Below, piece by piece: positions 14,136-33,930 of a DNA stretch of 64,000 bases. The position numbers and the translations under genes were made by a program. This stretch comes from Phyllobacterium chamaecytisi. Its GTDB lineage: Bacteria; Pseudomonadota; Alphaproteobacteria; Rhizobiales; Rhizobiaceae. The notes beneath the pieces are model-generated. The model worked only from the letters and a program-made list of their open reading frames with translations, was not told the DNA's origin and did no database searches. Each line of letters opens with the position of its first letter. Within the stretch, counting starts at the first letter, position 1. Location: the NCBI RefSeq assembly GCF_020164455.1, contig NZ_JAIQWW010000008.1:124001-188000 (forward strand), read 5' to 3'.

Positions 14136-15026
14136 ATGATTTCTGAAGTGTTCATCACCTGTGCGGTGACAGGAGGCGGCGGCGCGCCGAAGCAAAAGAA
14201 TGTGCCAGTCACCCCACGGGAGATCGCTGACTCGGCGATCGAGGCGGCGCGGGCCGGGGCGGCGGTGGTGCACCTTCACGTGCGTGATCTCAAGACCGGC
14301 CAGGGCGTACTGGATCTTGGGCTGTACAGGGAGACTGTGCAGCGCATACGGGAATCCGATGCGAATCCGGTGATCAACCTCACTACGGGAGAGGGTTGCT
14401 ACATTGTTTTGGGCAGCTCGAACTCTCCGCTGCCGCTTTCAGCGGAGACGGACATGCTTGGCGCCCTCGAGCGGCTTGTGCACATTGAAGAGTTGCGTCC
14501 GGAGATCTGCACGCTGGATTGCGGCTCGATGAGCGCTAGGGGCACGAGTGAGGGTGCCATGATCAACACCATTGGGACCCTACGCGCGATGGCGGCACGT
14601 TTGCAAGAGCTCGGAGTGAAGCCTGAGCTTGAAGTATTCGATACCGGCCATCTGAAGATGGTGAAAGATCTCGTCAAAGAGGGACTAATTGACGATGTGC
14701 CGTTGATCCAGTTGTGCATGGGCGTCGGCTATGGTGCACCGGCGGATTTGACCACGCTGACGACGCTGGTGCATCAGCTCCCGCCGGATGCTGTTTATTC
14801 CACCTTCTCGGTTGGGTCGATGCAGCTTCCGTACGCGGCGTTGGCGCCAATGATCGGCGCAAACGTGCGGGTCGGACTGGAGGACAACCTTTACCTCTCC
14901 CGCGGGCGGCTGGCAACCAATGCCGAACTCGTACAGCGGGCAGTCGAGATCCTCGATCGGCTCGGGGTCCGTGTGCTTGGGCCGAATGAGGTGCGCGAGA
15001 CGCTCAAATTAAAAGTTCATGCCTGA
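14136..15026 (+). CDS. Beta-keto acid cleavage enzyme (BKACE, DUF849), probable 3-dehydrocarnitine type
   Basis: This 296-residue TIM-barrel protein has the BKACE hallmarks: ITCAVTGGGG at the start, PVTPREIADSAIEAA.AGA, the zinc-binding HLHVRD with His46 and His48, and the C-terminal VRVGLEDNLYL segment with the catalytic Arg/Glu/Asp cluster. BKACE enzymes condense a beta-keto acid with acetyl-CoA, giving acetoacetate and a new CoA ester. Members next to carnitine dehydrogenase act on 3-dehydrocarnitine, yielding betainyl-CoA. The downstream gene, 14 bp away, is exactly that dehydrogenase with a fused thioesterase, which supports this assignment. The start overlaps a GGAGCAGTTGGG ribosome site. 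First gene of a four-gene operon ending at 18500. Confidence 0.88.
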   Translation: MISEVFITCAVTGGGGAPKQKNVPVTPREIADSAIEAARAGAAVVHLHVRDLKTGQGVLDLGLYRETVQRIRESDANPVINLTTGEGCYIVLGSSNSPLPLSAETDMLGALERLVHIEELRPEICTLDCGSMSARGTSEGAMINTIGTLRAMAARLQELGVKPELEVFDTGHLKMVKDLVKEGLIDDVPLIQLCMGVGYGAPADLTTLTTLVHQLPPDAVYSTFSVGSMQLPYAALAPMIGANVRVGLEDNLYLSRGRLATNAELVQRAVEILDRLGVRVLGPNEVRETLKLKVHA

Positions 15027-15040: not shown

Positions 15041-16534
15041 ATGCTTGATAAATCGAAGTTTACCGAGAAGCGGCCACGCGAAGTCGGGCTTCTCGGGGGC
15101 GGTGTGATCGGCGGCGGGTGGGCGGCGCGTTTCATTCTAAATGGAATCGACGTGCGACTATACGATCCGGCCCCGAACGCGGTCGAGCATGTGCAAAACG
15201 TGCTGACGAACGCCCGACGGGCATATGGCCAACTAACACTGGTCCCCCTTCCTCCGGAAGGGTCGTTAACGATAGCAGATTCAGTGGCGGATGCCGTCCA
15301 AAGCGTGGATCTGGTGCAGGAGTCCGCGCCAGAACGCCTGGAGCTAAAGCAGTCCTTGCTCGCGGACGCCAGTCGCGCGGCAGCGCCCGGGACCCTGATA
15401 TGTTCCTCAACCTCCGGTTTTCGACCGTCATTGCTGCAGGCAAAGATGGAACGACCAGAATGTCTGCTCGTCGCGCACCCCTTTCAACCTGTGTATCTGC
15501 TTCCGCTTGTTGAATTGTGCGCTGGGGAACAAACGGTGCCAGAGGCGTTGGAGCGAGCGGCGGCGATTTACCGGGCAATCGGGATGCATCCTCTTGTGGT
15601 GCGTAAAGAGGTGGACGGGTTTATAGCGAACCGGTTGCAGGACGCGGTGTCGCGCGAGGCGTTGTGGCTGGTGCACGACGATTTGGCAACGCTGGAAGAG
15701 ATCGATGATGCCGTTCGCTACTCCTGGGCATTGCGCCGAGCGGCCATCGGATCCTATCGCATGGCCAATGGTGGAGCCGGCATGCGCCAGAGCATCGAGC
15801 AATGGGCATTCAAGTGGCCGTGGTCGAGGCTCACCGATAAGCCCGAAATTGACTCAACCTTCCTGGACAAAGTGGCTACGCAGGCAGACGCGCTGGCGAC
15901 GGCCGACCCCTTGCCCGTATCCACCGAACATAAACGAGATGACCTTCTCGTGGCATTGCTGCACGGGCTGCGCTCCCAGGGCTACGGACCGGGCGAGACG
16001 CTCGCGCGATGGGAGCAGGGGCTCCGCGCTCGCGCTCACCTGCCCGCTCAGGATTCTGGCCCGTTGCGGACGTTGCGAGAAATCCCGTCTAATTGGATAG
16101 ACGGTAACGGACACGCCGCTGAGAGCACTTATCTTCAGCTCTGCAGTGACGCCACCAGCACCGTAGGGCGCTACATCCGCGAGAGTGGCACGGACCCGGA
16201 AAACAGGGGGACTTATTACACGGTCGAGACGCACCTATCGCATATGGATGAACTTCACGCCGGCGACCGCGTCGAGATATTTACGCAGGTTCTCGGCGCC
16301 GACGACAAGAGATTGCACCTCTTCCACGTAATCAAGCGCGAGGGTTGCGACAAGCCAGCTGCGATGGGCGAGCAGATGCTGATTCACGTGGACGCTAAAA
16401 GCAGACGCAGTGCACCGGTGCAGGGGCCTCTGCGCGAGCGAATGCTAGAACTTGCGCGGCTGCATGCGAAGCTACCCCGTCCGGAGCAGGCGGGCGCAAG
16501 CATCCGCATGTCGCGCACACGGGCGTGCGAATAA
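15041..16534 (+). CDS. cdhA: L-carnitine 3-dehydrogenase fused to betainyl-CoA thioesterase domain
   Basis: A 497-residue fusion. Residues about 15-330 form a 3-hydroxyacyl-CoA-dehydrogenase-like enzyme with the NAD site GLLGGGVIGGGWA, the LVAHPFQPVYLLPLVEL block with the catalytic His, and DGFIANRLQ. Residues about 345-480 form a hot-dog thioesterase (YTVETHLSHMDELHAGD, then FTQVLGADDKRLHLFH). Rhizobial carnitine dehydrogenases are known in this fused form. The dehydrogenase oxidises L-carnitine to 3-dehydrocarnitine with NAD. The thioesterase would release glycine betaine from betainyl-CoA made by the BKACE partner. An SDR gene follows 58 bp later. Assignment rests on domain order and neighbours; another beta-hydroxy acid is possible. 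Confidence 0.87.
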   Translation: MLDKSKFTEKRPREVGLLGGGVIGGGWAARFILNGIDVRLYDPAPNAVEHVQNVLTNARRAYGQLTLVPLPPEGSLTIADSVADAVQSVDLVQESAPERLELKQSLLADASRAAAPGTLICSSTSGFRPSLLQAKMERPECLLVAHPFQPVYLLPLVELCAGEQTVPEALERAAAIYRAIGMHPLVVRKEVDGFIANRLQDAVSREALWLVHDDLATLEEIDDAVRYSWALRRAAIGSYRMANGGAGMRQSIEQWAFKWPWSRLTDKPEIDSTFLDKVATQADALATADPLPVSTEHKRDDLLVALLHGLRSQGYGPGETLARWEQGLRARAHLPAQDSGPLRTLREIPSNWIDGNGHAAESTYLQLCSDATSTVGRYIRESGTDPENRGTYYTVETHLSHMDELHAGDRVEIFTQVLGADDKRLHLFHVIKREGCDKPAAMGEQMLIHVDAKSRRSAPVQGPLRERMLELARLHAKLPRPEQAGASIRMSRTRACE

Positions 16535-16592
16535 GTGCTCATGCTTCGTCATCGCTAAATGGTCCTCATCGCAGAAAGGGAATGGAACGATC

Positions 16593-17390
16593 ATGACTAA
16601 AACGTCGGGCCCCGAATTTCGGAAAAGTGCCGAGCGCCACGAGCAGCAGCCCCACGTAGGTGGCTGGTCGCTTGAGGGGCGAGTTGCGCTGGTGACTGGC
16701 GCCACCGGGGGGCTTGGAAAGGCTATCGTGACCGAGCTGCGTGAACGTGGGGCGGACGTGTATGGTGTGGATATTGCCGGGGATGCCATCTTTCACGCGG
16801 ACCTCTCCACTGCGGAAGGGAATCGACGCATGGTGTCCCAAGTCATTGAGACGGCCGGACGCCTTGATATACTGGTGTTGAATGCTGGATGCCAATTCGT
16901 CGCCCCGCTCCATGAGTTTCCGGACGCCGAATGGGAACGTGTTCGATCTGTGGCCCTGGACGGCCCCTTCTTTGCTCTTAAGGCGGCATGGCGGGAACTG
17001 ACGAAATCGCCCGGCGGCCGCGTCGTGGTCACGGCATCCGTCTCGAGCTTCACGGCCGCAGTCCAAAAAGCTGCGTACACAGCTGCGAAGCACGGTGTTC
17101 TGGGGCTGGTGCGTGTTGCAGCGCGTGAGGGCGCTGCGCATGGTCTGACTGTCAACGCCGTCGCTCCGGGCTGGATGGACACCGGAATGTTGCGCGGTCA
17201 ACTGGAAGGTGCGGCAGCAAGAAAAGGCATCAGCACCGACGAAGTCATCGCGCAAATGCGCGCGTGGCAGCCAGGTGATCGTTTCGTCGACGTTCGCGAG
17301 GTTGCAGCAACCATCGGTTTTCTTGCGAGCCCTGGCGCTTCCGCGATCAATGGTGTGTGCCTACCCATCGATCTCGGGGCAACTGCTTAG
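16593..17390 (+). CDS. Short-chain dehydrogenase/reductase
   Basis: A 265-residue classical SDR from ATG 16593, chosen because AAAGGGAATGGA precedes it; the frame stays open to 16452 inside the previous gene. It has TGATGGLG (cofactor site) near residue 35, NAG near residue 98, catalytic Ser in TASVSSF and YTAAK around residue 165. It probably oxidises or reduces a hydroxy or keto intermediate with NAD(P). In this operon it could handle D-carnitine, 3-hydroxybutyrate from acetoacetate, or an unrelated alcohol. The binding-protein gene follows after 45 bp. A stretch of 83 bp from its 3' part (17185-17267) is found again inside the mosaic at 31825-31907. Confidence 0.86.
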   Translation: MTKTSGPEFRKSAERHEQQPHVGGWSLEGRVALVTGATGGLGKAIVTELRERGADVYGVDIAGDAIFHADLSTAEGNRRMVSQVIETAGRLDILVLNAGCQFVAPLHEFPDAEWERVRSVALDGPFFALKAAWRELTKSPGGRVVVTASVSSFTAAVQKAAYTAAKHGVLGLVRVAAREGAAHGLTVNAVAPGWMDTGMLRGQLEGAAARKGISTDEVIAQMRAWQPGDRFVDVREVAATIGFLASPGASAINGVCLPIDLGATA

Positions 17391-17435: not shown

Positions 17436-18500
17436 ATGAATAGAATACTGATAAAAGCTGGTGCTTTGGCCATAATCGGCTTGGCAGTGGCGAACCTTCC
17501 GGCAACGAAACACGCTTTGGCAAGCGACCAGCTGACGATCGTTTCTTGGGGCGGCGCCTATCAAACGGCCTTGCGCAAGGCCTTCTTCGAGCCCTTTACG
17601 GAGGCGACCGGCGTCAAAATCACCGAAGACGAATACAATGGGGAGGTAGCAAAGCTCCGTGCTATGGTCGATTCCAATACTGTGAGCTGGGATGTGCTTG
17701 ATGCTCCCGGATCGATTGGCTGGATAATGTGTACACAGGGCCTCCTCGAGACCATCGATTGGACGAGGCTTGGGCTTGACCGCGCCAAGTTCGGCAATGC
17801 CGGCAAATTTGACTGTGGGGTGCCAATCCAAACTAACTCCACGATCGTCGCTTATGACAAGGACAAGTTGCCGAACGGGCCGAAGACCATCGCTGACCTT
17901 TTCGACTTAAAGAAGTTTCCAGGCAAGCGCGGACTGTGGAAGAGTCCCTACCCCACTCTAGAATGGTCGCTGATCGCTGACGGCGTGCCGATTGCCGATG
18001 TCTATAAAGTCCTGAACACGCCTGAAGGTGTCGATCGCGCCTTCAAGAAACTCGACACGATCAAAAAGGACATCATCTGGTGGACAGCCGGGGCCCAGGC
18101 GCCACAGCTGTTGGCCGACGGACAGGTCGTCATGACCGCGGCCTATCATGGGCGGATCTATAGTGCCGCGAAAGAGTCCGGTCGACATTTCGAGATAATG
18201 TGGGATGCCGCGCAGGCGGGCACAGGTTGGTTTACCATTCCCAAAGGTAGTGCGCATCTGGAGGAGGCTTACAAGTTTCTCACCTTCGCCGGCTCACCAG
18301 CGAATCAGGCGAGCCTAACGCGCCATATCCCTTACGGCCCCCTCAACCAAGATGCGATGGCGCTTGTTGATCCGGCACTGTTGCCAGATCTTCCAAATAC
18401 GGCGGAGCGTACCGCAATTGCGCTGCATACCGATTATTCGTTCTGGGTTGACAAGGACGATGAGCTGCGCCAACGCTTCACAGCTTGGCTCGCGAAGTAG
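17436..18500 (+). CDS. ABC transporter periplasmic binding protein, PotD/spermidine-putrescine type
   Basis: A 354-residue exported solute-binding protein. The N-terminus has a basic start, a hydrophobic core (LAIIGLAVANL) and a likely cleavage after ALA near residue 30. The mature part starts DQLTIVSWGGAYQ, typical of the polyamine/iron type 2 binding-protein class, and contains YDKDKLPNGPK, GKRGLWKSP and WWTAGAQAPQLLADG. AAGGAG stands 7-8 bases before ATG. It is the last gene of the BKACE-dehydrogenase-SDR operon, so its ligand is probably the substrate of that pathway. No permease follows directly; the PotABC-like set starts 1.2 kb later and may be shared. A strong hairpin follows the stop. 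Confidence 0.9.
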   Translation: MNRILIKAGALAIIGLAVANLPATKHALASDQLTIVSWGGAYQTALRKAFFEPFTEATGVKITEDEYNGEVAKLRAMVDSNTVSWDVLDAPGSIGWIMCTQGLLETIDWTRLGLDRAKFGNAGKFDCGVPIQTNSTIVAYDKDKLPNGPKTIADLFDLKKFPGKRGLWKSPYPTLEWSLIADGVPIADVYKVLNTPEGVDRAFKKLDTIKKDIIWWTAGAQAPQLLADGQVVMTAAYHGRIYSAAKESGRHFEIMWDAAQAGTGWFTIPKGSAHLEEAYKFLTFAGSPANQASLTRHIPYGPLNQDAMALVDPALLPDLPNTAERTAIALHTDYSFWVDKDDELRQRFTAWLAK

Positions 18501-19400: not shown

Positions 19401-19725
19401 TATCGTGCCGGGTTATGCCGGCCGCCACCAACGTGCTTGTAAGCGCGTAATTTTCGCATTCTGCTAATTTAGTGCAGGATTGTTGCGCTTAAGATCGCCA
19501 TATCGGTGAAATTCTTCTCCAGAACTCGGTACTTTCTTCGGCAACAATAAAGATCTTCGACGATTTTATTTCGCGGAGTCAACGCGGGGAAGTTGGCCGC
19601 TGGCTGACCTCAGACACTCATGCAGGTCTGTCCTGCAATCTAAAGCGAAGTTCGAAAAAGTGAGATCCCATAAAGGCTGCAATCGAGTGCGGTGGGACAG
19701 CTCAAAATCGGACGGAAAGGGGCCG

Positions 19726-20820
19726 ATGCCAGACAGTAACAACACCGTTGTGAAGTTCGCCAATATCCAGAAGACCTACGACGGCAATGCGCTGGTTGTT
19801 AAGAATCTCAACTTGGACATCGCTCGGGGTGAGTTCTTGACCATGCTGGGCCCCTCTGGCTCCGGCAAGACGACCACTCTCATGATGCTCGCCGGCTTTG
19901 AGGCGCCGACACAAGGTTCCATCCTTCTGGAGGGGCGCTCAATTGACAACATGCCTCCGCACAAACGCGACATTGGCATGGTGTTCCAGAACTACGCGCT
20001 GTTTCCGCATATGACGGTGGAGGAGAACCTCGCCTTTCCGCTGAAGGTCCGGAAGCTCGGCAAGGCCGAGATCGAGGCCAGGGTCAAGCGGGCGCTCGAC
20101 ATGGTCCGGCTCGGCGCTCATGGCAAGCGCCGCCCCGCCCAGCTTTCCGGCGGTCAGCAGCAACGCGTCGCGGTTGCCCGTGCCCTTGTCTTCGATCCTA
20201 AGCTCGTGCTCATGGATGAGCCGCTCGGCGCGCTGGACAAGCAGCTGCGCGAGCAGATGCAGCTTGAGATCAAGCATATCCATCAGGAACTTGGTGTCAC
20301 CGTGGTCTATGTGACGCACGATCAGAGCGAAGCGCTGACCATGTCGGATCGCATTGCGGTGTTCAACGACGGGGCCATTCAGCAACTCGCCGCGCCCGCC
20401 GAGCTATACGAGCGACCGCAGAACGCTTTCGTTGCTCAGTTCATCGGCGAGAACAATAGGCTGCAGGGCACCGTCCTGGCCAGGAATGGCACGACCTGCA
20501 AGGTGGAAGTACCCAACGCGGGCAACGTGCAGGCGCTTGCTGTCAATGTCGAGGTGGTCGGACGACCGACCGTGCTGTCGTTGCGGCCGGAGCGGGTGAA
20601 ACTGAACCCCCCACCGGGCTCTCTGCCCAATATCTTCAAGGCGCAGGTTGCGGAGGTCATCTATCTGGGCGACCACGTGCGCATTCGGGTGTCGGTCTGC
20701 GGCCATGACGACTTTGTGATCAAGCTGCCGAATTCGGAAGGCGTGGTGCAGCTCGATCCGGGCACCGCGATCACCATCGGCTGGAAGACTGAGGATTGTC
20801 GGGCGCTCGATGCGTCATGA
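19726..20820 (+). CDS. ABC transporter ATP-binding protein, PotA-like
   Basis: A 364-residue polyamine-type ATPase from ATG 19726, chosen for the GGAAAGGGG ribosome site 4-12 bases before it; the open frame reaches back to 19660. Walker A is GPSGSGKTT (42-50), the Q loop MVFQNYALFP follows, the signature is LSGGQQQR (140-147) and Walker B is LVLMDEP (160-166). A C-terminal TOBE-type domain covers about residues 240-355. It powers import by the permeases at 21850 and 23108. Two fragments of a second copy lie at 32212-32590 and 34700-34862. This copy appears complete and starts the only full transporter set in the window. Confidence 0.93.
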   Translation: MPDSNNTVVKFANIQKTYDGNALVVKNLNLDIARGEFLTMLGPSGSGKTTTLMMLAGFEAPTQGSILLEGRSIDNMPPHKRDIGMVFQNYALFPHMTVEENLAFPLKVRKLGKAEIEARVKRALDMVRLGAHGKRRPAQLSGGQQQRVAVARALVFDPKLVLMDEPLGALDKQLREQMQLEIKHIHQELGVTVVYVTHDQSEALTMSDRIAVFNDGAIQQLAAPAELYERPQNAFVAQFIGENNRLQGTVLARNGTTCKVEVPNAGNVQALAVNVEVVGRPTVLSLRPERVKLNPPPGSLPNIFKAQVAEVIYLGDHVRIRVSVCGHDDFVIKLPNSEGVVQLDPGTAITIGWKTEDCRALDAS

Positions 20821-20909: not shown

Positions 20910-21776
20910 ATGAGGATGACTTCAATGAACGCTGGAGCATTAGCGGTGATCGGTCTGGCCGGTATGCTGGCGACAGCGGAAACCGCCTTTGCGGGCGACC
21001 AACTGACGGTCGTCTCCTGGGGTGGAGCCTATGAGAAGGCCCTGGGCAAGGTCTTTTTTGAGCCCTTCACAAAGGCGACCGGGATCAAACTCACCGAGGA
21101 TGAGTGGAGCGGTGAGATCGCCAAGATCCGTGCCATGGTCGAATCAAAGTCCGTCAGCTGGGACGTGGTCGACGCCAGCGGGTCGGGTGCATGGATGATG
21201 TGTGCCGAGGGCCTTCTCGAGGTGATCGACTGGAAGAGGTTGGGCCTCGACCGAGCCAAGTTCGGTGAAGCCGGCAAATTCGACTGCGGGGTACCGTTTC
21301 AAACCAACCCTACAATTGTATACTATGACAAGGACAAGCTGCCGAACGGCCCGAAGGCCATCGCCGATCTGTTCGACACGAAGAAATTCCTCGGCAAGCG
21401 CGGCCTGTGGAAGAGTTACTCTCCCAACCTCGAATGGGCACTGATCGCTGACGGCGTGCCGACCAAGGAGGTATATAAGGTTCTGGGCACGCCGGAGGGC
21501 GTCGATCGCGCCTTCACGAAACTCGACACGATCAAGAAGGACGCCTACAAGTTCCTAGCCTTCGGCGGCTCACCCGAACCGCAGGCCGACCTTACGCGCT
21601 ACTTCCCCTTTGGGCCGGGCAACCAGGATGCGATGCCGCTTCTTGATCCGGCGGTGCTGACTGATCTTCCAAACACGCCGGAGCGAGACGCCATTGCGCT
21701 TCAACCCGACTACCTTTTCAAAATTGAGAAGGGCGATGAATTGGCTCAGCGCTTCACCGCCTGGCTCGCGCAGTAA
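20910..21776 (+). CDS. PotD-type binding protein with a 65-residue internal deletion
   Basis: A paralogue of the binding proteins at 17436 and 34953, with an open frame of 288 residues where they have about 354. The signal peptide (AVIGLAGMLATAETAFA) and both ends are normal. At KLDTIKKD the sequence jumps directly to AYKFLAFGGSP, skipping the stretch that holds WW.AGAQ, the ADGQV strand and the following helix in the relatives. The deletion is 195 bp and in frame. Those residues line the ligand cleft in this fold, so binding is probably lost or changed. It sits between the ATPase and permease genes, the usual place for the cognate binding protein, and has GGGAGGAAG before ATG. Confidence 0.85.
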   Translation: MRMTSMNAGALAVIGLAGMLATAETAFAGDQLTVVSWGGAYEKALGKVFFEPFTKATGIKLTEDEWSGEIAKIRAMVESKSVSWDVVDASGSGAWMMCAEGLLEVIDWKRLGLDRAKFGEAGKFDCGVPFQTNPTIVYYDKDKLPNGPKAIADLFDTKKFLGKRGLWKSYSPNLEWALIADGVPTKEVYKVLGTPEGVDRAFTKLDTIKKDAYKFLAFGGSPEPQADLTRYFPFGPGNQDAMPLLDPAVLTDLPNTPERDAIALQPDYLFKIEKGDELAQRFTAWLAQ

Positions 21777-21786
21777 GAACAAACAA

Positions 21787-21849: not shown

Positions 21850-23103
21850 ATGATGGCGATTATAGCGGTCCAAAGCGCGCGCAGTTCAAACGGGATGTCT
21901 TTACGTATGAAGCTGCAGCGGGTCGAGCGCCGGCATAAGTTCAAGGCTTTCGTCCTCGTTCTGCCGCTTGTGCTGTTCGTCCTGATCACCTTTGTCTTTC
22001 CAATCGGCCGCATGATGTTCAGCGCGATCCATGACGATACGCTGTTGACGCTCATGCCGCGAACCACCGCAGCCTTAAGCGCTTGGGACGGCAAGGATCT
22101 GCCCGACGAGCGCGCCTATGCCGCTCTCGCCGAGGATCTCAAGCAGGCCTGGGCCCACAAGACCACGGGCGTGATCGCCAAGCGGGTTAATTATGAACTG
22201 GCCGGCGCCGGCAGCCAGGTCACGTCGAGCGCGCGCAAGTTGAGCACGCTTTCCGCCGGCCCCTACAAGGCGGCGCTGATAGAAATCAATCCCCTCTGGG
22301 GTCAGCACGACGTCTGGAGCCTGCTCAACCGCGGCCGCTCAGCTTATACAGCCTATTACCTGCTGCGTTCGGTCGATTACCAGTATGGTCCCGACAGCCA
22401 GATCGTTGCCTCGCCACCACAGTACTCGGTCTTTCGCGACGTATTTCTGCGCACGCTGGGGATCAGCATCGGCGTGACCGCCGCGACCTTGCTGCTGGGC
22501 TTCCCGGTTGCCTATCTCCTGGCGACCTTGCCGCCCCAGACCAGCAATCTCTTGATGATCATGGTCGTGGTGCCGTTCTGGATCTCGGCGTTGGCACGCA
22601 CCACAGCCTGGGTCGTGCTTCTGCAAGAACACGGAGTTGTCAACGACGTTTTGATGGCACTGCATGTGATATCGCAGCCCGCTGAACTCGTCTACAACCG
22701 GGTCGGCACCGTGCTGGCCATGACGCATATTCAGCTGCCCTTCACGCTGCTGCCGATCTATAGCGTGATGAAGACGATCTCGCCCAACTATGTCCGCGCT
22801 GCCCGCTCGCTCGGCGCCGGCCCATTCTACGCCTTCTGGAAGGTCTACTTCCCGCAAACCCTGCCGGGGGTCGCCGCCGGCTGTCTTCTGAGCTTCATTC
22901 TTTGCCTGGGCTACTACTTGACCCCCGCGCTCGTCGGAGGGGCGAACGACCAGATGGTCAGCTACTTCGTCGCCCACTACACGAACGAGGATCTCAATTG
23001 GGGCATGGCCTCGGCCCTAGGCGCCATTCTGCTCACGGCTACGCTGCTCCTATACTATATCTATAATAGACTGGTCGGCGTCGACCAGCTCAAGATGGGG
23101 TGA
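21850..23103 (+). CDS. ABC transporter permease, PotB-like
   Basis: A 417-residue membrane protein. A first helix (FKAFVLVLPLVLFVLITFVF) is followed by a large periplasmic insert of about 150 residues. The transport core then has about five helices (ISIGVTAATLLLGFPVAYLL, then LLMIMVVVPFWISALARTTAW). The EAA-type loop is AARSLGAGPFYAFWKVYFPQ. It has a GAGAGAGG ribosome site and follows the hairpin. The next permease starts 4 bases after the stop, indicating translational coupling. Bases 22251-22636 are repeated at 30627-31012 with no difference by eye. The long insert is typical of this family branch. Confidence 0.92.
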   Translation: MMAIIAVQSARSSNGMSLRMKLQRVERRHKFKAFVLVLPLVLFVLITFVFPIGRMMFSAIHDDTLLTLMPRTTAALSAWDGKDLPDERAYAALAEDLKQAWAHKTTGVIAKRVNYELAGAGSQVTSSARKLSTLSAGPYKAALIEINPLWGQHDVWSLLNRGRSAYTAYYLLRSVDYQYGPDSQIVASPPQYSVFRDVFLRTLGISIGVTAATLLLGFPVAYLLATLPPQTSNLLMIMVVVPFWISALARTTAWVVLLQEHGVVNDVLMALHVISQPAELVYNRVGTVLAMTHIQLPFTLLPIYSVMKTISPNYVRAARSLGAGPFYAFWKVYFPQTLPGVAAGCLLSFILCLGYYLTPALVGGANDQMVSYFVAHYTNEDLNWGMASALGAILLTATLLLYYIYNRLVGVDQLKMG

Positions 23104-23107
23104 AACA

Positions 23108-23938
23108 ATGGCCCGTCACATGTATGCCTCTCCAGTTGAAAAGGGCTGGTACTATCTGCACCGGCTGTTCTGTGGGGTGGTGTTGCTATATCTGATTGCA
23201 CCAATCCTTGCGATCATCCCGCTATCCTTCAATTCTGTACCCTTCTTCACCTATCCTATGTCAGGGTGGTCGCTGCGCTGGTATGAAGAGTTCTTCCTAA
23301 CAGACCGTTGGCAGGGCGCGCTGTACAACTCGATCCTCGTCGCAGTGTCTGCAACGCTACTGTCAACCGCGCTCGGCACGTTAGCCGCGCTCGGGCTCAG
23401 TCGCCCCACTTTCCCATGGCGCACGGCGGTGATGGGCCTGCTGATATCGCCCATGATCGTCCCGGGCATCATCACCGCAGTGGCAGTATATTTCTTCTAT
23501 GCCGATATCGGGCTGCTCAACAGCTATACCGGACTGATCGTGGCGCATACTACACTGGCCACCCCTTTTGTCGTCATCGCCGTGACCGCGACCCTCGCGG
23601 GTTTCGACCACTCGCTCACCCGCGCCGCCGCCGGCCTCGGCGCGCCGCCGATCACAGTCTTCTTCAAGGTCATCCTACCGCTTATTTTACCGGGTATGAT
23701 TGCGGGTTCGCTCTTCGCCTTCCTCACCTCCTTCGATGAGGTGATCGTAGCCCTTTTCATCGCCAGCGCCGAGCAGCGCACTTTGCCAAGGGTCATGTTT
23801 TCCGGCATCCGCGAACAGATCAATCCGACTATTATCGCCGGCGCCACAGTACTGACTCTGTTCTCCGTCGTGGTGCTGGCGGTGGTCGAACTACTGCGCC
23901 GACGCTCGGAACGTTTACGCGGGATCCGCGATACCTGA
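23108..23938 (+). CDS. ABC transporter permease, PotC-like
   Basis: A 276-residue inner-membrane permease with about six helices (VVLLYLIAPILAIIPLSF near residues 22-40). The EAA loop AAAGLGAPPITVFFKVILPL lies near residue 170, where it docks on the ATPase. It pairs with the previous permease and the PotA-like ATPase to form the import channel. The C-terminus VELLRRRSERLRGIRDT is encoded by a stretch that recurs, slightly diverged, at 26357-26447 inside the 3' end of the metallo-beta-lactamase gene. It closes the transporter operon 19726-23938. Confidence 0.92.
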   Translation: MARHMYASPVEKGWYYLHRLFCGVVLLYLIAPILAIIPLSFNSVPFFTYPMSGWSLRWYEEFFLTDRWQGALYNSILVAVSATLLSTALGTLAALGLSRPTFPWRTAVMGLLISPMIVPGIITAVAVYFFYADIGLLNSYTGLIVAHTTLATPFVVIAVTATLAGFDHSLTRAAAGLGAPPITVFFKVILPLILPGMIAGSLFAFLTSFDEVIVALFIASAEQRTLPRVMFSGIREQINPTIIAGATVLTLFSVVVLAVVELLRRRSERLRGIRDT

Positions 23939-23984
23939 CCTTGCCCTCGCACATGTTGCGAGACGTCCTACGCCCTCTCGGAGC

Positions 23985-24190: not shown

Positions 24191-24473
24191 AAAAGACAAT
24201 GACTCTGCCAAACCCATCTCAATTCAGCGAAGCGGCACAGGAGCAAGATATGGCCACCCGCTTCTATTGCCCCGCATGGGTTGCTATGCCGCGCCAAGAG
24301 TGTTTGACATACGGGACGGGCGCCCACACGCAGGTCGCCTGAAGATTCTGAGAGCCGCGACCCGAGGTGAGATGACGCCTGACGGCCTCAAACAGATCGG
24401 CCACGAAAGGTTTTCCGAAGCACGGACCACACGGGTGGGGACAAGATCGTCTTGTCATTGAGAAGGAAATGAA

Positions 24474-26525
24474 ATGTCTTTGATCCAGCGCTCCGAAAAT
24501 CTTTGGGAATTTCAGGATGCTTGTAACGTTTACGTTCTGAAGAGTGGCACGGAGTGCCTACTAATCGACGCAGGATCCGGCGCTGTTATACAGCATCTTG
24601 CTACGATCGGTGTCGAGCGAGTCGACTGGGTTCTACATACCCATCATCACAGGGATCAGTGCTGGGGAACACCCAATGTGCAAAAGGTCGGGGCAAAAAT
24701 TGCCGTGCCGGAATACGAACGCCACCTCTTCGACAATGTCGAGGCCTATTGGCAGGCTCGGCGTATCTATGACAACTATAACGACAGCAATACATTTTTC
24801 TCATTAGCGGAAAATCTTCCGGTCGATGCCGTTCTCGAGGACTACGGCACCTTTGTATGGAAGGAGTACGAGTTCCGCGTCCTGCCGGCAAAGGGTCATA
24901 CATACGGCATGGTCAGCCTAATCGTAGAGGTGGATGGCAAGAAGATCGCGTTTACAGGCGATCTGATGACAGCGGGTGGAAAGCTCTATCAACTTCATGC
25001 ACTGGAGTATAACTACGGCGACCTTCTTGGCATTGAATTTACAATGCAATCAATCCTCGCCTTAAAAAAGGAGGACGTCGAGACCGCCTATCCATCGCAT
25101 GGACTGCCGATCTGGGAGGTTAAGGCGGATATAGGAAAGCTTGAAACAAGGCTCGAGACACTCGCGAGTATAGGCAGGCTTTATACGTCGGGCCGGGGCA
25201 GCGATTTCAACGACGTGCAGACTATCCGCGAAAGCAGGCTGCAGTCAATTTCGGAACATCTACTGTGGGCCGGACCTTATACCTGCTCCAATTTCTACAT
25301 TGTGCTTAGTGGAAGCGGCCACGCGATGCTAATTGACTACGGTATGGCCTCCGTGGGCCATCTCCATGCAGGGTCCAATCACGATAGTGTGCACGCAGTG
25401 CGCTTCGTTCAGCATCATATCGATCAACTTCGCGACGATTATGGAGTGCGGCACATCGAACTCGTCCTTCCAACGCACATTCATGACGACCATGTCTGTG
25501 GGATACCGTTCCTGCAACGACATTACGGCACGCAGTGCTGGGCTCTCGATTGCGTTGCTGATGTCATTGCCGATCCCGCTGCGTGGGCAAGCACGCCGTG
25601 CTGCTTCCACAAACCCATTCAGGTGCAGCGGATTCTGTGTGATGGGGAGGCGTTTCACTGGAGAGGCTTTGACTTCGAGATTCATCACGCACCAGGCCAA
25701 ACCGAATACCATGCGATTGTCTTAGGTCATATCGACGGCAAGCGGATCGTCTTCGGGGGAGACAACTTGTTTCTCTTCAATCCTGAAGCCAGAGGGATTG
25801 AGCGCGAGATCGCCGTCCAGTCTACGGTCATGCGCAACAGTTTCCAGTTGGAGATGCATCGCGCCTGCGCGGATGTGATACGCGCGACGAAGCCTGATCT
25901 CGTATGCCCCGGACACGGAGAGCTGATCACTATGGATTACTCGAGGATCGCCGAGTACACAGACTACATCGAACGGAAGGAAGCAGCCTTCCGTGATATC
26001 GTAGGCGAGCCCGCAAACTATTTCATCGATCTATTCTGGGCGCGAATGCTGCCATATCTTTCAGAAGCCCGCCCGAACTGCGAGGTCACATACACGGTTA
26101 GGATTCGCAATAACTTGGAGCGCACCGCTGTCTACAGCGCTCGCCTCCTACCGGCATTCGGTTGGGCGTCCCATGGTGAGGCGGGAACCATCACGCTTCA
26201 GCCGGGGGAGCAAGGCGATATCATGCTTGAGGCGACTGCGCCGTCTCAAGTCGATCCGCGGCGAAGGCTCATGACCGCCGAGATTTTAATCGACGGTGTA
26301 TCGCAGGGACCTGTTTGTGAAGCCCTCGTCTCAGTTCCCGGAGATCGACGAACTCCACGTCGCCATGCTGGCGCTGGTCGAACTGCTGCGCCGACGCTCG
26401 CAGCGGTTACGCGGGATCCGCGATACCTGACGGTTCCTTCGCATGTTGTTCATGCAGCACAATCGACGGAGAACGTCCGGCCCGTCCCGGCAGCTTCCCA
26501 CCAATCAAGAGGCAGGGGAAAATGA
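24474..26525 (+). CDS. Tandem metallo-beta-lactamase-fold hydrolase
   Basis: A 683-residue protein with two metallo-beta-lactamase domains. Domain 1 (about 1-265) has T-H-H-H-R-D-Q at 56-62, where the last metal-binding His of the usual HxHxDH is Gln, but keeps KGHTYG and FTGDLM. Domain 2 (about 266-520) has an intact HIHDDH at 335-340 but reads APGQTEYH, with Gln409 where the next His is expected, and keeps FGGDNL. A C-terminal region of about 110 residues shows a beta-sandwich-like pattern. The last 55 or so residues are low-complexity and are encoded by a misframed piece of PotC 3' DNA. AGAAGGAAATGAA precedes ATG. Substrate unknown; a thioester, lactone or phosphodiester is possible. Confidence 0.82.
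   Translation: MSLIQRSENLWEFQDACNVYVLKSGTECLLIDAGSGAVIQHLATIGVERVDWVLHTHHHRDQCWGTPNVQKVGAKIAVPEYERHLFDNVEAYWQARRIYDNYNDSNTFFSLAENLPVDAVLEDYGTFVWKEYEFRVLPAKGHTYGMVSLIVEVDGKKIAFTGDLMTAGGKLYQLHALEYNYGDLLGIEFTMQSILALKKEDVETAYPSHGLPIWEVKADIGKLETRLETLASIGRLYTSGRGSDFNDVQTIRESRLQSISEHLLWAGPYTCSNFYIVLSGSGHAMLIDYGMASVGHLHAGSNHDSVHAVRFVQHHIDQLRDDYGVRHIELVLPTHIHDDHVCGIPFLQRHYGTQCWALDCVADVIADPAAWASTPCCFHKPIQVQRILCDGEAFHWRGFDFEIHHAPGQTEYHAIVLGHIDGKRIVFGGDNLFLFNPEARGIEREIAVQSTVMRNSFQLEMHRACADVIRATKPDLVCPGHGELITMDYSRIAEYTDYIERKEAAFRDIVGEPANYFIDLFWARMLPYLSEARPNCEVTYTVRIRNNLERTAVYSARLLPAFGWASHGEAGTITLQPGEQGDIMLEATAPSQVDPRRRLMTAEILIDGVSQGPVCEALVSVPGDRRTPRRHAGAGRTAAPTLAAVTRDPRYLTVPSHVVHAAQSTENVRPVPAASHQSRGRGK
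26357..26447 (+). repeat. PotC 3'-end repeat inside the metallo-beta-lactamase gene
   Basis: These bases match 23865-23957, the end of the PotC-like gene and its first downstream bases, at roughly 85-90 percent by eye. The shared core is GCGGGATCCGCGATACCTGAC. In the PotC frame this copy still reads VELLRRRSQRLRGIRDT and stop. The metallo-beta-lactamase frame crosses it in another phase, which adds an unrelated tail to that protein. Confidence 0.82.
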
Positions 26526-26605
26526 CGAAATCCGACCCGCAGATAAATCAAGTACATTACCGGCTCGACAGCAACGCTCTCGGCCAAAGCGACCAGGAGA
26601 CAGGC

Positions 26606-29080
26606 ATGAAACGTCCTTCCCTTCCTCTTTCAGGCGTCAAAGTTGTCGATTTTGGTCAGTATATCGCTGGTCCGGCGGTGGCGATGGTCCTCGCCGATCT
26701 TGGCGCCATAGTCGTGCATATCGACCCACCCTCCGGACCCCTCTGGGACAGCCCGGCCAATGCAACGCTCAATCGGAACAAATTGATTGTCGAGATCGAC
26801 TTGAAGACTGAGGAGGGCCTTTCGCAAGCGCAAGCCCTAGTCGCGGAAGCGGACATCGTGGTGGAAAATTTCCGACCGGGTGTGCTTAGCCGCCTCGGAA
26901 TCGACTTCACGGCGCTGCGCAAGGTCCGGCCGGAGCTCATCACAGTATCTATTCCAGGCTTTGCCTCGAACGATCAACTTCGTCGCGAGTGGCGCGCCTT
27001 CGAGGCGGTCATCGCGGCATCCTCAGGTGTGTTCACCGACATGGGGCTTGACCGCGTCTTGATGGGTGTCATTCCCTACTTCTCGCCGCTGCCTCTGGCA
27101 TCTGCCTATGGCACGATGCTTGCTGCATCGGCAGCGGTACTGGCGCTTCAAGCACGGGAGCGCAGCGGGATCGGCGACCACATTGAGGCGCCTCTTGTAT
27201 GCGCGGTCATGGAGGCCCTCGCATACAACGCGTGCTTAGTTGAGAACTTTCCGCCTCGCTACACTGGTCATCGTAGTCGCGAGATCGCCCAAAGGCGCGA
27301 GGCAAACTTGCCGCTGAATCTCTCTTACCAGTCTGTACAAGACCTTCACGACCCTTTTTATCGGAATTCGGGTTATATGTGTAAAGATGGACGCATGTTC
27401 TCCATCGCATGCGCCGGCCACAAAGTTCATATCAAGCGCTGCTTGCAGGCTCTCGGACTATACGATGAGCTCGTGTCCGAAGGGCTTGTAGAGCAAATGG
27501 ATCACTATCTTGCTCTCCCCTTGCCAAAGTATTGGCATGATGAGATTACCACGCGAATGAAAGCTGTTTTCTTGACCCGAACCTCAGAGGAGTGGGAGCG
27601 CATCTTCAGAGAAAGCCGGATCGCGGGTTCGCCGCAGCGCTCCTTGAAGGAATGGATGAGCAACGAACATGCTACCGCTGCGGGCGTCGTGGTGGAGGTC
27701 GACGACCCGGTGTTTGGACGAATGACTCAGCCGGGACCTATGGCTTGGTTGGAGGAAACTGGTGAAATGATGTTGAACCCGGCGCCTCGTAAATGGGTCG
27801 CCTTCGATGAGGCGATCGCGGCACTTTCGGCGATTCCTGTTAGGCGGCCGCCGGCGCGTCCTGCACGGGCGTCGTCTGGATGGCTCGATGGCGTACGGGT
27901 TCTCGACCTGTCCAATGTGATCGCTGGTCCGCATACGGCATATTATCTCGCCCGTTTCGGTGCGGAGGTAATCAAGATCGACCCGGCCCTCCCCCTATAC
28001 AACTGCTCCTGGACAGTGTCCATGGGAATGGTCAATATGTGCGGCAAGCACTCGGCGTTAGTGGATATTGCCTCGCCAGGCGGCCGGAAGGTCTTCGAAC
28101 GGTTGGTGAAGTCAGTTGATGTTATCGTCTGGAATGCGACTGACCAGGAGGTCAAGCGTAAGGGGCTCCATCTGGAGGGTCTGAAAGCGCTCAATCCGGA
28201 CGTGATCTTCTGCCAAGTCGATTGCTTCAGCGGTGTGCGCGGTGGCCCACGTAGCGATGATCCCGGCTATGACGACATTGCTCAAGCGGCGACTGGCATT
28301 ATGCTCAGATTTGGCGGTTCCCCGGAGTCACCCGAGGAGCATGCACACTACGGTACAATCGACGCTTTAGGCGCGTACAGCGCGGCTCTTGGTATTGCCG
28401 CCGCGTTGTACCAGAAAGGAAGAACCGGTCACGTGGGGCGGCCGCGGACGTCGCTGTCGGCGCTTTCCGGTCTTCTGCAAGTTCCCTTCTGCTACGACTA
28501 TGCAGGACGCGACCCCTTCGATGAACCCGCCGGGCCAGATGCCAAGGGCTACAACGCCTTGGCCCGCCTTTACAGAACGGCTTCCGGCCGCACCCTCATG
28601 CTCAACGCCGTTGAGAGCGACTTGCCTCGCCTTGCGCAAGTCGAGGGGCTTGAAGGACTTGGTGACGTGCCAGCCGAGGACCGAGCCACCTTCCTTTCTA
28701 CGGCTATGGAGAAGGCAAGCGCTGAGGATTGGTTGTCGAGATTGACTGCAGCCGATATCGGCGCAGCAATCTGCGAGAACATAGATGCGATACGTTCCGC
28801 AAATTCCAGGCCTGCGGACGGTACGCCAGGGACCGACCGGGGCAGCTATTCCTTCTCAATATATCGTGATCATCCGAGTGGACATACCGTAACTCAGCTC
28901 GATCCCTACGCCATTCGCTCGGAGGCCGGGAAGGTCTATGCATTATCCCCCGCCGAGAAATACGGCGCGTCAACCCGGCGACTTCTGCGGTCCTTTCAAT
29001 ATACCGAAGCGGACATAGACGCGCTAATCGCCGCGGGCAACATAAGCGAGAGTTGGAGTCACGAGTATTTGCCTACTTGA
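26606..29080 (+). CDS. Tandem family III CoA-transferase (two CaiB/BaiF domains in one chain)
   Basis: An 824-residue chain with two full family III CoA-transferase domains. Domain 1 starts LPLSGVKVVDFGQYIAGPA and domain 2 starts near residue 430 with LDGVRVLDLSNVIAGPH. In this family a conserved Asp forms the acyl-anhydride. Domain 2 has it in GTIDALGAYSAALGI (Asp586). The equivalent place in domain 1 reads LASAYGTM, with Ser166. I use ATG 26606 because CAGGAGACAGG precedes it. The longer frame from 26522 starts with codons copied from the amidohydrolase leader. It would move CoA between a donor CoA ester and an organic acid, CaiB-like. A frameshifted full copy is at 8482-10965. Confidence 0.9.
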   Translation: MKRPSLPLSGVKVVDFGQYIAGPAVAMVLADLGAIVVHIDPPSGPLWDSPANATLNRNKLIVEIDLKTEEGLSQAQALVAEADIVVENFRPGVLSRLGIDFTALRKVRPELITVSIPGFASNDQLRREWRAFEAVIAASSGVFTDMGLDRVLMGVIPYFSPLPLASAYGTMLAASAAVLALQARERSGIGDHIEAPLVCAVMEALAYNACLVENFPPRYTGHRSREIAQRREANLPLNLSYQSVQDLHDPFYRNSGYMCKDGRMFSIACAGHKVHIKRCLQALGLYDELVSEGLVEQMDHYLALPLPKYWHDEITTRMKAVFLTRTSEEWERIFRESRIAGSPQRSLKEWMSNEHATAAGVVVEVDDPVFGRMTQPGPMAWLEETGEMMLNPAPRKWVAFDEAIAALSAIPVRRPPARPARASSGWLDGVRVLDLSNVIAGPHTAYYLARFGAEVIKIDPALPLYNCSWTVSMGMVNMCGKHSALVDIASPGGRKVFERLVKSVDVIVWNATDQEVKRKGLHLEGLKALNPDVIFCQVDCFSGVRGGPRSDDPGYDDIAQAATGIMLRFGGSPESPEEHAHYGTIDALGAYSAALGIAAALYQKGRTGHVGRPRTSLSALSGLLQVPFCYDYAGRDPFDEPAGPDAKGYNALARLYRTASGRTLMLNAVESDLPRLAQVEGLEGLGDVPAEDRATFLSTAMEKASAEDWLSRLTAADIGAAICENIDAIRSANSRPADGTPGTDRGSYSFSIYRDHPSGHTVTQLDPYAIRSEAGKVYALSPAEKYGASTRRLLRSFQYTEADIDALIAAGNISESWSHEYLPT

Positions 29081-29260
29081 AACGGCCATCGAGCAAGAAG
29101 AGAGCCTCTGGGGATCCTGGGGGCGACTTTCGAGACAAGAGCGCCGATCGTAGACTGGCTTTATTTGTCGTATGTTGTTCATTTGCCAAATCGGAGCCGA
29201 CTGACCACGTCTCGGCCGTTCCACCCATTTCGCAGTGACGACCGAGGTAAAAAGGGGAAA

Positions 29261-30553
29261 ATGATGAAGTCCGACCCACAGATCACACAATGGGTTCAGC
29301 AGACGCCGTTCGTGGACACCCACGAGCATCTGATCGAGGAAAGCCAGCGCGTGTCCGGCGTAATCGGTCGGTGGCTGCCTTGCGACGACTGGACCTATGC
29401 AGTCAGGGACTACGTTGCCAACGATTTGGCGGTTGCGGGAATGCCGAAAACCGAGCTGCAAAGCTTCCTTGGGCCGGATCTTTCGAGCGTGGTTAAATAC
29501 CAGCTGGTCGCACCTTACTGGGATCGCATCCGCCACACCGGCTATGCTCAGGCCGTGCGCCATACGCTTCGCGGCCTCTATGGTGAGGACGACCTGACTG
29601 CCGAGAGTGTGCCTCGCATCGCCGAAAAATACCGCGAGACCATTCAGCCCGGCTTTTACGCTGCCATTTTGCGTCGTGCGAACATCGAGAACTGCCAAGT
29701 CAATTCTCTGCAGCGCATCTTCATGGAGACCGAGCAGCCAGCGCTACTGGCGCAGGATTTAAGCATCCTCGAATTTTCCCGGTGCAGCGCTGCGGACATC
29801 GCCCGCGTGCATGCTGAAACAGGCAAACAACCGACAACGCTGGATGATTGGCTGGAGATCATCGACTTCTATTTCGCTACGTACGGTCCGAAGGCCGTGG
29901 CGGTGAAATGTCAAATTGCCTATTCGCGTTCGCTTGATTTCGCACCGGTCGCCAAGGCACACGCGGCGAGGCTATTTCTGCACCACATCGGCAAGATGCG
30001 CCACGACCTAGGTTCCGAGGATCTCAAGTCGATGCAGGATTTTCTTTTCCGCTACTGTGTCGGCAAAGCTACCGAGTGCGATCTGCCTGTTAAACTGCAC
30101 ACTGGTATTGTGGGCGGTCATGGAATGTTGCAACTCGCCCACACTCGCAACAACGCCGCCGATCTGTGTCGCCTATTGTTGGATTTTCCTGATACCCGTT
30201 TCGTCCTGATGCACATCGGGTATCCTTACGAGCAGGAATTTATCGCGCTGGCCAAACACTATCCGAACGCGTGGATCGATATGTGCTGGGCATGGGTTCT
30301 CAACCCCGCGGCGAGCATCCGTTTTCTGAAGGATTTTTTGCTGGCGGTTCCCGCCGACAAGATCTTCACCTTCGGCGGCGACTACGTCGCGGTGGAGCCG
30401 ATCTATGGCCACGCCTGCGTTGCTCGCCGTGGCATCGCACAGGCGCTCTCGGAACTGGTCGGTCAAGGCTGGATCGCCCACGAGGAAATCCCCGCCCTCA
30501 TCGAGCGGATCATGCGCGGTAACGCACTTCGCTTCTTCCAAAAGGGCCAATGA
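29261..30553 (+). CDS. Amidohydrolase-family protein
   Basis: A 430-residue metal-dependent hydrolase-like protein. The N-terminal DTHEHL supplies His21 and His23. Further metal or catalytic sites are probably KLHTGIVGGHGM, VLMHIGYPYEQE and the closing FGGDY near residue 370. The pattern fits the amidohydrolase-2/uronate-isomerase-like branch. Start at ATG 29261 follows AAAAGGGGAAA; the frame is open to 29165. It lies 180 bp behind the tandem CoA-transferase, and this gene order recurs in the relic at 18645-19165, so the two probably act together. The substrate is not evident: a cyclic amide, lactone or carboxylated ring are all conceivable. Confidence 0.82.
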   Translation: MMKSDPQITQWVQQTPFVDTHEHLIEESQRVSGVIGRWLPCDDWTYAVRDYVANDLAVAGMPKTELQSFLGPDLSSVVKYQLVAPYWDRIRHTGYAQAVRHTLRGLYGEDDLTAESVPRIAEKYRETIQPGFYAAILRRANIENCQVNSLQRIFMETEQPALLAQDLSILEFSRCSAADIARVHAETGKQPTTLDDWLEIIDFYFATYGPKAVAVKCQIAYSRSLDFAPVAKAHAARLFLHHIGKMRHDLGSEDLKSMQDFLFRYCVGKATECDLPVKLHTGIVGGHGMLQLAHTRNNAADLCRLLLDFPDTRFVLMHIGYPYEQEFIALAKHYPNAWIDMCWAWVLNPAASIRFLKDFLLAVPADKIFTFGGDYVAVEPIYGHACVARRGIAQALSELVGQGWIAHEEIPALIERIMRGNALRFFQKGQ

Positions 30554-30626
30554 CAACATGATGGTTGATAGCCGACCGGGTGATGGTGTCATGGTCGCTT
30601 AAGTGGTGCATCCAAGACGAGCACGC

Positions 30627-31012
30627 TTCCGCCGGCCCCTACAAGGCGGCGCTGATAGAAATCAATCCCCTCTGGGGTCAGCACGACGTCTGGAGCCTGC
30701 TCAACCGCGGCCGCTCAGCTTATACAGCCTATTACCTGCTGCGTTCGGTCGATTACCAGTATGGTCCCGACAGCCAGATCGTTGCCTCGCCACCACAGTA
30801 CTCGGTCTTTCGCGACGTATTTCTGCGCACGCTGGGGATCAGCATCGGCGTGACCGCCGCGACCTTGCTGCTGGGCTTCCCGGTTGCCTATCTCCTGGCG
30901 ACCTTGCCGCCCCAGACCAGCAATCTCTTGATGATCATGGTCGTGGTGCCGTTCTGGATCTCGGCGTTGGCACGCACCACAGCCTGGGTCGTGCTTCTGC
31001 AAGAACACGGAG
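30627..31012 (+). repeat. 386-bp repeat of PotB-like permease internal DNA
   Basis: Base for base by eye this equals 22251-22636, an internal part of the PotB-like gene covering the periplasmic insert and the first core helices. It is bounded on the left by 70 bp of unrelated DNA after the amidohydrolase stop and on the right by a FadB-like fragment. An open frame (30565-31200, 211 residues) crosses it, but starts and ends in foreign sequence and is unlikely to be functional. The absence of differences points to recent duplication or gene conversion. Confidence 0.93.
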
Positions 31013-32590: not shown

Positions 32591-32612
32591 TGATACTTGC
32601 GTAAGGACCCCA

Positions 32613-32712
32613 ACAGCATCCCGGCTTCGAAAAGATCACAAACTCCGAGCATGTGCGAGAAAGCGCGCTCGCCGTCGTTGTAAAGCGCAAGCCAAACTGG
32701 AAGGAACCTGAA
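32613..32712 (+). pseudogene. C-terminal tail of a crotonase-type gene
   Basis: The frame leading into the next gene reads [20 protein letters not shown], then KRKPNWKE, which resembles the C-terminal helix and terminal KRKP.W of enoyl-CoA hydratases. It joins directly to the PotA fragment on its left. Short, so identification is tentative, but a hydratase next to a carnitine-type dehydrogenase would be a natural pair. Confidence 0.5.
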
Positions 32713-33638
32713 GTGTCTGGTTACATCCCTGTTCACGATCCACGCTCAATTGAGTCCGTCGCCTGCATCGGCACCGGCACGATCGGAGGTGGCTGGACGG
32801 CCTATTTCCTGTCGCAAGGGCTCAACGTGCGAGCATTCGACCCGGCGCCGCAACAGAGAGTGCGGCTTCGAGCAAATATCGAAGCAATCTGGCCCCGCCT
32901 GGCACAGCTCGATCTCGCCCAGAGCGCTAGCATCGATAGGCTCGTGATCTGCGAGACAATCGAAGAGGCGCTCGACGGTGTGAGCTATGTCCAGGAGAGC
33001 ATCATCGAGGATAAAGCACTCAAGTCTGCCCTATTCGCCGAGCTTGATGCAAAGACATCGGCGGATGTTGTCCTGGCGACATCTTCGTCTCAGTTTATTC
33101 CATCCGACCTAGCGTCCAACTGCCAATTTCCGGAGCGGGTAATCGTAGCACATCCGTTCGCTCCCACTTACCTCATTCCGCTGGTCGAGCTTCTCGCTAT
33201 TCCCGGCAAGTCGGACGGAGCGGTACAGTGGGCAAGGGAGTTCCTCATCGCTGTTGGGAAAAAGCCAGTTATGCTGAAAAAAGAAATTAACGGTTACATC
33301 GGAAACCGCCTTCAGAAAGCCTACGTCGACGAAGCACGCCGCCTAGTCGAGGAGGGTTACTGCACTTACCAAGACGTCGATGAAGTCATCGTTAACGGCT
33401 TCGGCGTTCGAATGGCTTTCATGGGCCTAAGCCAATACTACAATCTTGGTGGCGGCCTGGGTGGTATCGAACACTGCTTCAAGCTGTTCGGTTGGAAGGG
33501 CACGCGCGAGGCGCAGGAAGACCTGCGCGCGACCGTGCAGAAATTCGCGCAAGCGTCTCGATGGAAAAACTTGAAGAATGGCGAGACGAGAACATCCTTC
33601 GTATCCTTAAGGCACGCCGCATTAAACCTGAAGCGTAA
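32713..33638 (+). pseudogene. Carnitine-dehydrogenase-like 3-hydroxyacyl dehydrogenase, frameshifted near the end
   Basis: From GTG 32713, with AAGGAA before it, the frame gives a 3-hydroxyacyl-CoA-dehydrogenase fold. It has the NAD motif CIGTGTIGGGW, then SSSSQF, VAHPFAPTYLIPLVEL with the catalytic His and INGYIGNRLQ. Near residue 280 the original frame is lost. The expected C-terminal helix (MEKLEEWRDENILRILKARR) is in the next frame and ends at TAA 33636-33638. The actual open frame instead runs on to 33888 through unrelated codons, giving 391 residues. It lacks the thioesterase domain of the paralogue at 15041. The catalytic core is whole, so partial function cannot be excluded. Confidence 0.82.
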
Positions 33639-33713
33639 GCACGGAAGACCAGCTCTCGACAATTGCCTACGCCGGCACACAAACAACGGGATCACTATAC
33701 AATGGAACAAGAT

Positions 33714-33930
33714 GAGCATTGATGTTTCTATCACATGTGCGGTGCGGGTGACGTATCCAAGACGAATCACCCGTCTATTCCGGCGCTCCCGAAGGCAATT
33801 GCCTAAGCAGGTATCGAGGCGGCCAAGCATGGTCCGCGATCCCAACACCGGCGTCGGTACACACAATGTCGATCTCTACGGCGAGTGAATGAGCGCATTC
33901 GTGACAGTAACGCCGGCGTCATCCTGACCT
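33714..33930 (+). pseudogene. N-terminal remnant of a second BKACE gene
   Basis: ATG 33714 starts MSIDVSITCAV, matching ISEVFITCAV of the BKACE at 14136. The next frame continues with pieces equivalent to TPKEIA..GIEAAK, and then RDPNTGVGTHNVDLY and ERIRDSNAGVIL, all at family-typical spacing. Frameshifts and a stop break it, and nothing is left beyond the first quarter. Its place right behind a carnitine-type dehydrogenase mirrors, in reverse order, the intact pair at 14136-16534. Confidence 0.8.

Follow-up and report, generated by a model that had tools for sequence, protein, structure and literature searches.

The locus raises the question of what a single protein chain with two CoA-transferase family III domains, and a catalytic Asp in only one of them, does in Phyllobacterium chamaecytisi. 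The gene lies in a 64,000-nucleotide stretch of contig NZ_JAIQWW010000008.1, referred to here as the window, whose own numbering is used throughout (Table 1). Its reading frame is open throughout, with an AGGAG motif directly 5' of the ATG at 26606; a start at the upstream ATG at 26522 is possible and would give a protein of 852 aa. A sequence-only reading of the window had described two complete family III domains in the chain, which was borne out by PF02515 (CoA-transferase family III; Pfam), matched in two stretches of the protein (E 2.3e-118). Each half alone matches solved members of the family, namely formyl-CoA transferases, SUGCT and alpha-methylacyl-CoA racemases, and the second half also gives a whole-length match to CaiB. 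The identity between the two halves is 21%.

Table 1. Features of the window around the fused CoA-transferase gene (positions in the window).
Feature	Position	Strand	Remark
Broken second copy of the CoA-transferase gene	8485..10956	-	in-frame stops and frame changes
BKACE (beta-keto acid cleavage enzyme)	14136..15026	+	79% to the copy in the L151 gene run
3HCDH and thioesterase protein	15041..16534	+	75% to the copy in the L151 gene run
SDR, 3-hydroxybutyrate dehydrogenase type	16452..17390	+	
Solute-binding protein, same family as the 20910..21776 protein	17436..18500	+	
ABC transporter ATPase	19660..20820	+	82% to one near the B. australiense clade member
Solute-binding protein	20910..21776	+	288 aa; internal stretch absent in comparison with the 353-aa copy at 34953
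Two ABC permeases (21850-23103 and 23108-23938)	21850..23938	+	78-82% to those near the B. australiense clade member
Tandem metallo-beta-lactamase-fold (MBL) protein	24474..26525	+	residues after ~620 not covered by the best relatives
Remnant of an ABC permease gene tail, just 5' of the CoA-transferase gene	26358..26448	+	85% to 23866-23958
Fused two-domain CoA-transferase family III protein, DddD family, branch in which no dddA was found	26606..29080	+	824 aa
Domain 1, residues ~8-405, family III, no catalytic Asp, invariant Ser166	26627..27820	+	
Domain 2, residues ~422-824, carries catalytic Asp586	27869..29077	+	
Residues 577-596 round Asp586	28334..28393	+	6 of 17 conserved sites changed, shared with L120
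Amidohydrolase (PF04909)	29261..30553	+	start in the ORF list 29165 (TTG)
3-hydroxyacyl-CoA/carnitine dehydrogenase-like protein	32653..33888	+	only residues ~33-286 match families

In family III CoA-transferases the conserved Asp has been proposed to form anhydride and thioester intermediates (PMC6006322). The residue named as catalytic by the sequence-only reading, Asp586 in the GTIDALGAY motif of domain 2 (codon 28361-28363), proved to share an alignment column with Asp169 of both E. coli CaiB and Frc, and aligns also with an Asp of solved family III enzymes, e.g., PDB 10uh and 4hl6. An Asp is absent from this column in domain 1. Conservation was assessed first in an alignment of 89 rows, comprising the window protein, the best 80 of 516 relatives and eight plasmid-borne rows (out of 174 plasmid records in which a single place covered 80% or more), and then in 120 rows, made up of these 89 and 31 more, of which 111 were different. 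Cut or partial sequences (L108, L110, L125, L131, L134 and L150) and one with ten stops (L127) were excluded from the larger alignment; L121, L123 and L124 are the same genes as L022, L023 and L029. Neither Asp nor Glu occurs at domain 1 residues 157-176 in any of the 120 rows, and the absence of a catalytic Asp from domain 1 is therefore robust. A lesion in domain 1 peculiar to the window gene is ruled out by the same count. Which residue stands opposite the Asp depends on the alignment, being Pro163 with CaiB and Frc, Ser160 with 4ed9, Ser166 with 10uh and Ala167 with 2g04; Ser166 in the place of the catalytic Asp, as it had been described, is thus one among several alignments. Asp586 and Ser166 are both kept in all 120 rows, down to relatives of about 32% identity, and because Ser166 is invariant it is doubtful that domain 1 is "dead". 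The one-Asp asymmetry is the normal state of a known fused class, a family trait that is not special to the window gene. The built-in pseudo-heterodimer that had been proposed is the natural inference from the layout, but the layout itself is normal for the class.

The known class is DddD. According to an excerpt of PMC8163506, DddD converts DMSP to DMS and 3-HP-CoA with acetyl-CoA as CoA donor, and excerpted text of PMC7174347 gives it two CaiB domains. A fused chain with the Asp in the second domain only was found in 120/120 rows. Full-length relatives of 65-66% identity are present on plasmids of Sinorhizobium fredii NGR234 and Rhizobium leguminosarum WSM2304, two strains that, in the portion of PMC3338564 available, are included among the carriers of dddD; the same portion credits strain HTCC2083, the source of our locus L058, with a DddD homologue. 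We infer that the matches in NGR234 (the 65% gene, on pNGR234b), WSM2304 and HTCC2083 are the dddD genes of that study. At family level, DddD thus supplies what the sequence-only reading had named as a refutation of itself, namely a homologue of like layout that has been characterised and whose substrate is known. Since the fused one-Asp layout is a trait of the DddD class and has already been published, the central point of the sequence-only reading is known biology.

What may be new is the branch of DddD formed by the window gene and the Bradyrhizobium group. In a tree of 47 rows (44 different, midpoint root), the window gene, L120, L022, L122, L132, L023, L133 and L029 form one clade (100/100), which is nested in DddD and grouped with L024/L025 at 99/95; the window gene and L120 are sisters (100/100). 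In all of 200 bootstrap trees, the clade of eight corresponds to a single change. Three of its members (L022, L023 and L029) are from named Bradyrhizobium, and four (L120, L122, L132 and L133) from a search of Bradyrhizobium. Besides the eight tree genes, the ten clade loci discussed below include L155 and L156, which are pieces of a single genome, cut by contig ends, and were assigned by 75% identity rather than by the tree. One genome (G641) carries two near-identical clade CoA-transferase genes whose starts are 9.8 kb apart (L152/L153). On a plasmid of Dinoroseobacter shibae (L015), a fused relative of 41-42% identity, which belongs to another branch, is followed directly by a gene with the annotation N,N-dimethylformamidase beta subunit family.

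In the window protein and its sister, the sequence beside the catalytic Asp has changed. Compared with 95 other DddD-like rows, each at least 57% identical to the window protein and together defining 408 columns of at least 90% conservation, the window protein and its sister L120 have 24 changes at conserved sites in common. Six of them are V587A, M588L, C589G, G590A, F591Y and G592S. The enrichment of residues 577-596 (P 1.7e-4) refers to a stretch picked after the changes were seen; in a scan independent of this choice, the densest 20-residue cluster of shared changes was unmatched in 2000 shuffles. Positions 587-591, i.e., +1 to +5 from Asp586, read V, M, C, G and F, each in 95/95 other rows, and A, L, G, A and Y in the window protein and L120. 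Of the six remaining clade members, L122 and L132 retain VMCGF and four depart from it at one to three sites; C589G is found in four of the six. The full set of changes beside Asp586 hence belongs to the window protein and its sister only and not to the whole clade. Further from the Asp, W468 (95/95 other DddD-like rows) and N469 (94/95, with one X) are both lost in 8/8 clade rows. When VMCGF and W468/N469 are taken together as a residue test for DddD, a criterion that is our own and unpublished, the window protein and its sister differ at every site. Among 17 more distant relatives L588 occurs in 10, Y591 in seven and A590 in none. An AlphaFold2 model from 25 rows (pLDDT 72.7, pTM 0.79) matches family III chains in Foldseek over about half of the chain at 5-10 A rmsd; it cannot place the changed residues beside Asp586, because residues 119-162 and 549-583 are below pLDDT 50.

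The gene surroundings of the clade also depart from those of other DddD genes. A DddA-type GMC dehydrogenase gene stands 46-69 bases from dddD in 22/22 non-clade Hyphomicrobiales loci and is present at 71 of all 85 non-clade loci examined; no such gene was found at the ten clade loci in the flanks examined, several of which are short or cut. When eight genomes were searched whole, the best DddA match had 71-74% identity in all four non-clade genomes and 57-60% in all four clade genomes. The DddC, DddT and DddB types were likewise found at 0/10 clade loci, and elsewhere at only 18, 26 and 8 of 85, respectively. Carnitine-type genes, by which we mean BKACE, 3HCDH/thioesterase, SDR or 3HCDH at thresholds set by ourselves after a first look, are near four of the nine clade loci besides the window versus 1/85 others (Fisher P 2.0e-4), counts that are not independent because the clade loci are related. 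Without the two loci unplaced by the tree, the clade count is 3/7 (P 1.1e-3). With the window included it is 5/10, the window hits being self-matches; the window counts by construction, because the queries came from it. It entered the neighbourhood counts as 16606-39077, so that its BKACE and 3HCDH/thioesterase genes fell outside. The single positive among the 85 is L070 (BKACE 33%, 3HCDH 36%), and weak SDR matches (28-32%) at L033, L054, L058, L062 and L069 were below threshold and uncounted. The clearest case is the locus of the sister gene, L151, where genes for a solute-binding protein, SDR, BKACE, 3HCDH/thioesterase, a second 3HCDH and the CoA-transferase follow on one strand. Half of the clade loci have no carnitine gene in the flanks examined, several short or cut, and the carnitine-type queries had no match at L157-L162, six loci of relatives of 41-46% identity; L163, with a relative of 40%, has BKACE and amidohydrolase pieces. 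Among the open-licence papers listed on the subject, none is, judged by title and start of abstract, a study linking DddD with carnitine in rhizobia.

In the window, genes of the same carnitine types as at L151 are spread over 14136-33888. The 3HCDH and thioesterase product is taken, by its layout, to be of the carnitine 3-dehydrogenase type, and an acyl-CoA dehydrogenase (231-1400), a CoA ligase (1327-3675) and an enoyl-CoA hydratase (4617-5474) at the left edge could plausibly make up a route from gamma-butyrobetaine to carnitine. The region is also much rearranged. Between 20149 and 36013, ABC transporter, solute-binding and MBL genes are present in many decayed duplicates (for instance 22236-22636 against 30613-31012, 99%), and the neighbours of the CoA-transferase gene may for this reason be partly accidental. 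The broken second copy of the gene has 69% DNA identity to the intact one, and both the Ser and the Asp motif can still be read in it. Further downstream, a single ORF at 37168-38625 joins an acetoacetate decarboxylase domain to amidase pieces and is probably a chimera from rearrangement. The tandem MBL and amidohydrolase genes that the sequence-only reading had seen beside the CoA-transferase gene are real; the best relatives of the MBL protein leave ~60 residues at the end of its ORF uncovered, and the end of the ORF runs through the permease tail remnant. At our thresholds, the two proteins had matches at 0/9 other clade loci and 0/85 other loci, and on this ground a conserved three-gene unit is rejected. 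As evidence the other way, amidohydrolase pieces occur at L163, about 2.3 kb from the CoA-transferase relative, in a genome from the Bradyrhizobium search; there (4285-5736), an ABC permease is followed directly by these pieces with neither MBL nor CoA-transferase between. Relatives of the tandem MBL-fold protein were seen among carnitine-type genes on a Sinorhizobium terangae plasmid (L017) and adjoining a 3HCDH gene on a plasmid of the archaeon Haladaptatus (L021).

We lean towards the view that the window gene encodes a CoA-transferase, perhaps also a lyase, which would work as a pseudo-dimer with Asp586 and act on a carnitine- or betaine-type acid rather than on DMSP. The two halves would pair as an internal pseudo-dimer, in whose C-terminal half Asp586 would help to move CoA from an acyl-CoA donor to a carboxylate acceptor, while the N-terminal half, with its invariant Ser and without the Asp, would complete the dimer and probably shape the acceptor site. 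The changes beside Asp586 might then have a role in the pocket, and the enzyme of this branch might activate, and perhaps then cleave, a carnitine- or betaine-type acid instead of DMSP. What suggests a betaine-like acid other than DMSP is that no DddA was found, that carnitine-type genes are neighbours and that residues at the Asp have changed. A further-reaching version is put forward tentatively: the rhizobial branch of DddD might have abandoned DMSP in favour of a carnitine-pathway or other betaine acid encountered in plant hosts, on which it would act as CoA-transferase and perhaps also as lyase, the Asp-less half having been kept because the invariant Ser aids acceptor binding or cleavage. 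If so, nature would have recorded, in the window gene and its sister, how a DMSP lyase changes its substrate. The carnitine reading is weakened by the half of the clade loci, and the six loci of the 41-46% relatives, that lack carnitine-type genes; it also counts against it that authentic DddD is described as unlikely to be a carnitine CoA-transferase in the excerpted part of PMC7174347. The substrate matters beyond this locus, since similarity-only genome surveys can count genes this close to dddD as DMSP lyases; if the branch acts on another compound, some DMSP lyase counts from soil and plant bacteria are wrong.

Rather unlikely in our judgement is that the protein is still a DMSP CoA-transferase/lyase whose altered residues beside Asp586 reflect drift or fine tuning, with 3-HP-CoA oxidised by a 3-hydroxyacyl-CoA dehydrogenase and not by DddA. 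The nesting of the clade inside DddD speaks for this, as do the 3HCDH-type genes near the window gene and at L029, L151 and L156, the retention of most VMCGF residues in six of the eight clade members, and a related ABC transporter beside a DddD locus that does bear DddA (L045); at L013, too, an ABC transporter is annotated, together with a GMC gene. It is opposed by the loss of W468 and N469 across the clade, by the six changes flanking Asp586 in the window gene and its sister, and by the BKACE-type genes, for which we know of no role in the DMSP route. That the gene is a decaying relic without present role in a degenerate, rearranged region is improbable. The broken copy and the many decayed duplicates nearby would fit, and so would the absence of 12 residues near position 305 and the 41 positions at which the protein deviates from a residue shared by at least 95% of the other 88 rows; against it stand the intact frame, the ribosome-site-like motif, the retained Asp and Ser, and the 24 changes held in common with a gene of another genome. 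Moreover, dN/dS is 0.09-0.17 against four relatives (at a dS of 1-2, partly saturated), which argues that the window gene evolves under purifying selection. Least credible, and very improbable, is the reading of the chain as a singular pseudo-heterodimer whose domain 1 is dead and which works in an unrecognised three-gene pathway with MBL and amidohydrolase. Its two-domain, one-Asp layout is real, but the asymmetry is family-wide and already published (PMC6006322), the two partner genes were, at our thresholds, not matched at any of the nine other clade loci or the 85 further loci, and the nearest MBL relative lies among carnitine-type genes in a stretch without an annotated CoA-transferase of the fused kind.

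Of the known systems, the DddD homologues of NGR234 and WSM2304 are closest to the window protein, with two fused family III domains, the Asp in the second only, similarity extending over the whole length and a place in the same tree. The window gene differs from DddD in that no adjoining dddA was found, the residues beside Asp586 are changed and W468/N469 are lost, and some members of its branch have carnitine-type neighbours. PtmU4 also has two domains with the catalytic Asp in the C-terminal one (PMC6006322); set against the window protein by description, it differs in its role in thiocarboxylic acid formation, and it groups apart from DddD (PMC6006322). The E. coli gamma-butyrobetainyl-CoA:carnitine CoA-transferase CaiB, annotated in carnitine metabolism, shares the domain family and the Asp column with the window protein. 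However, it has one domain per chain, forms a homodimer according to the available text of PMC7174347, and is 21-22% identical to either half of the window protein, whose fused chain is not of this single-domain, homodimeric type. Finally, the succinyl-CoA:(R)-benzylsuccinate CoA-transferase BbsEF combines two different family III chains in one enzyme, and both match the model of the window protein, but in BbsEF they are separate subunits and act on another substrate.
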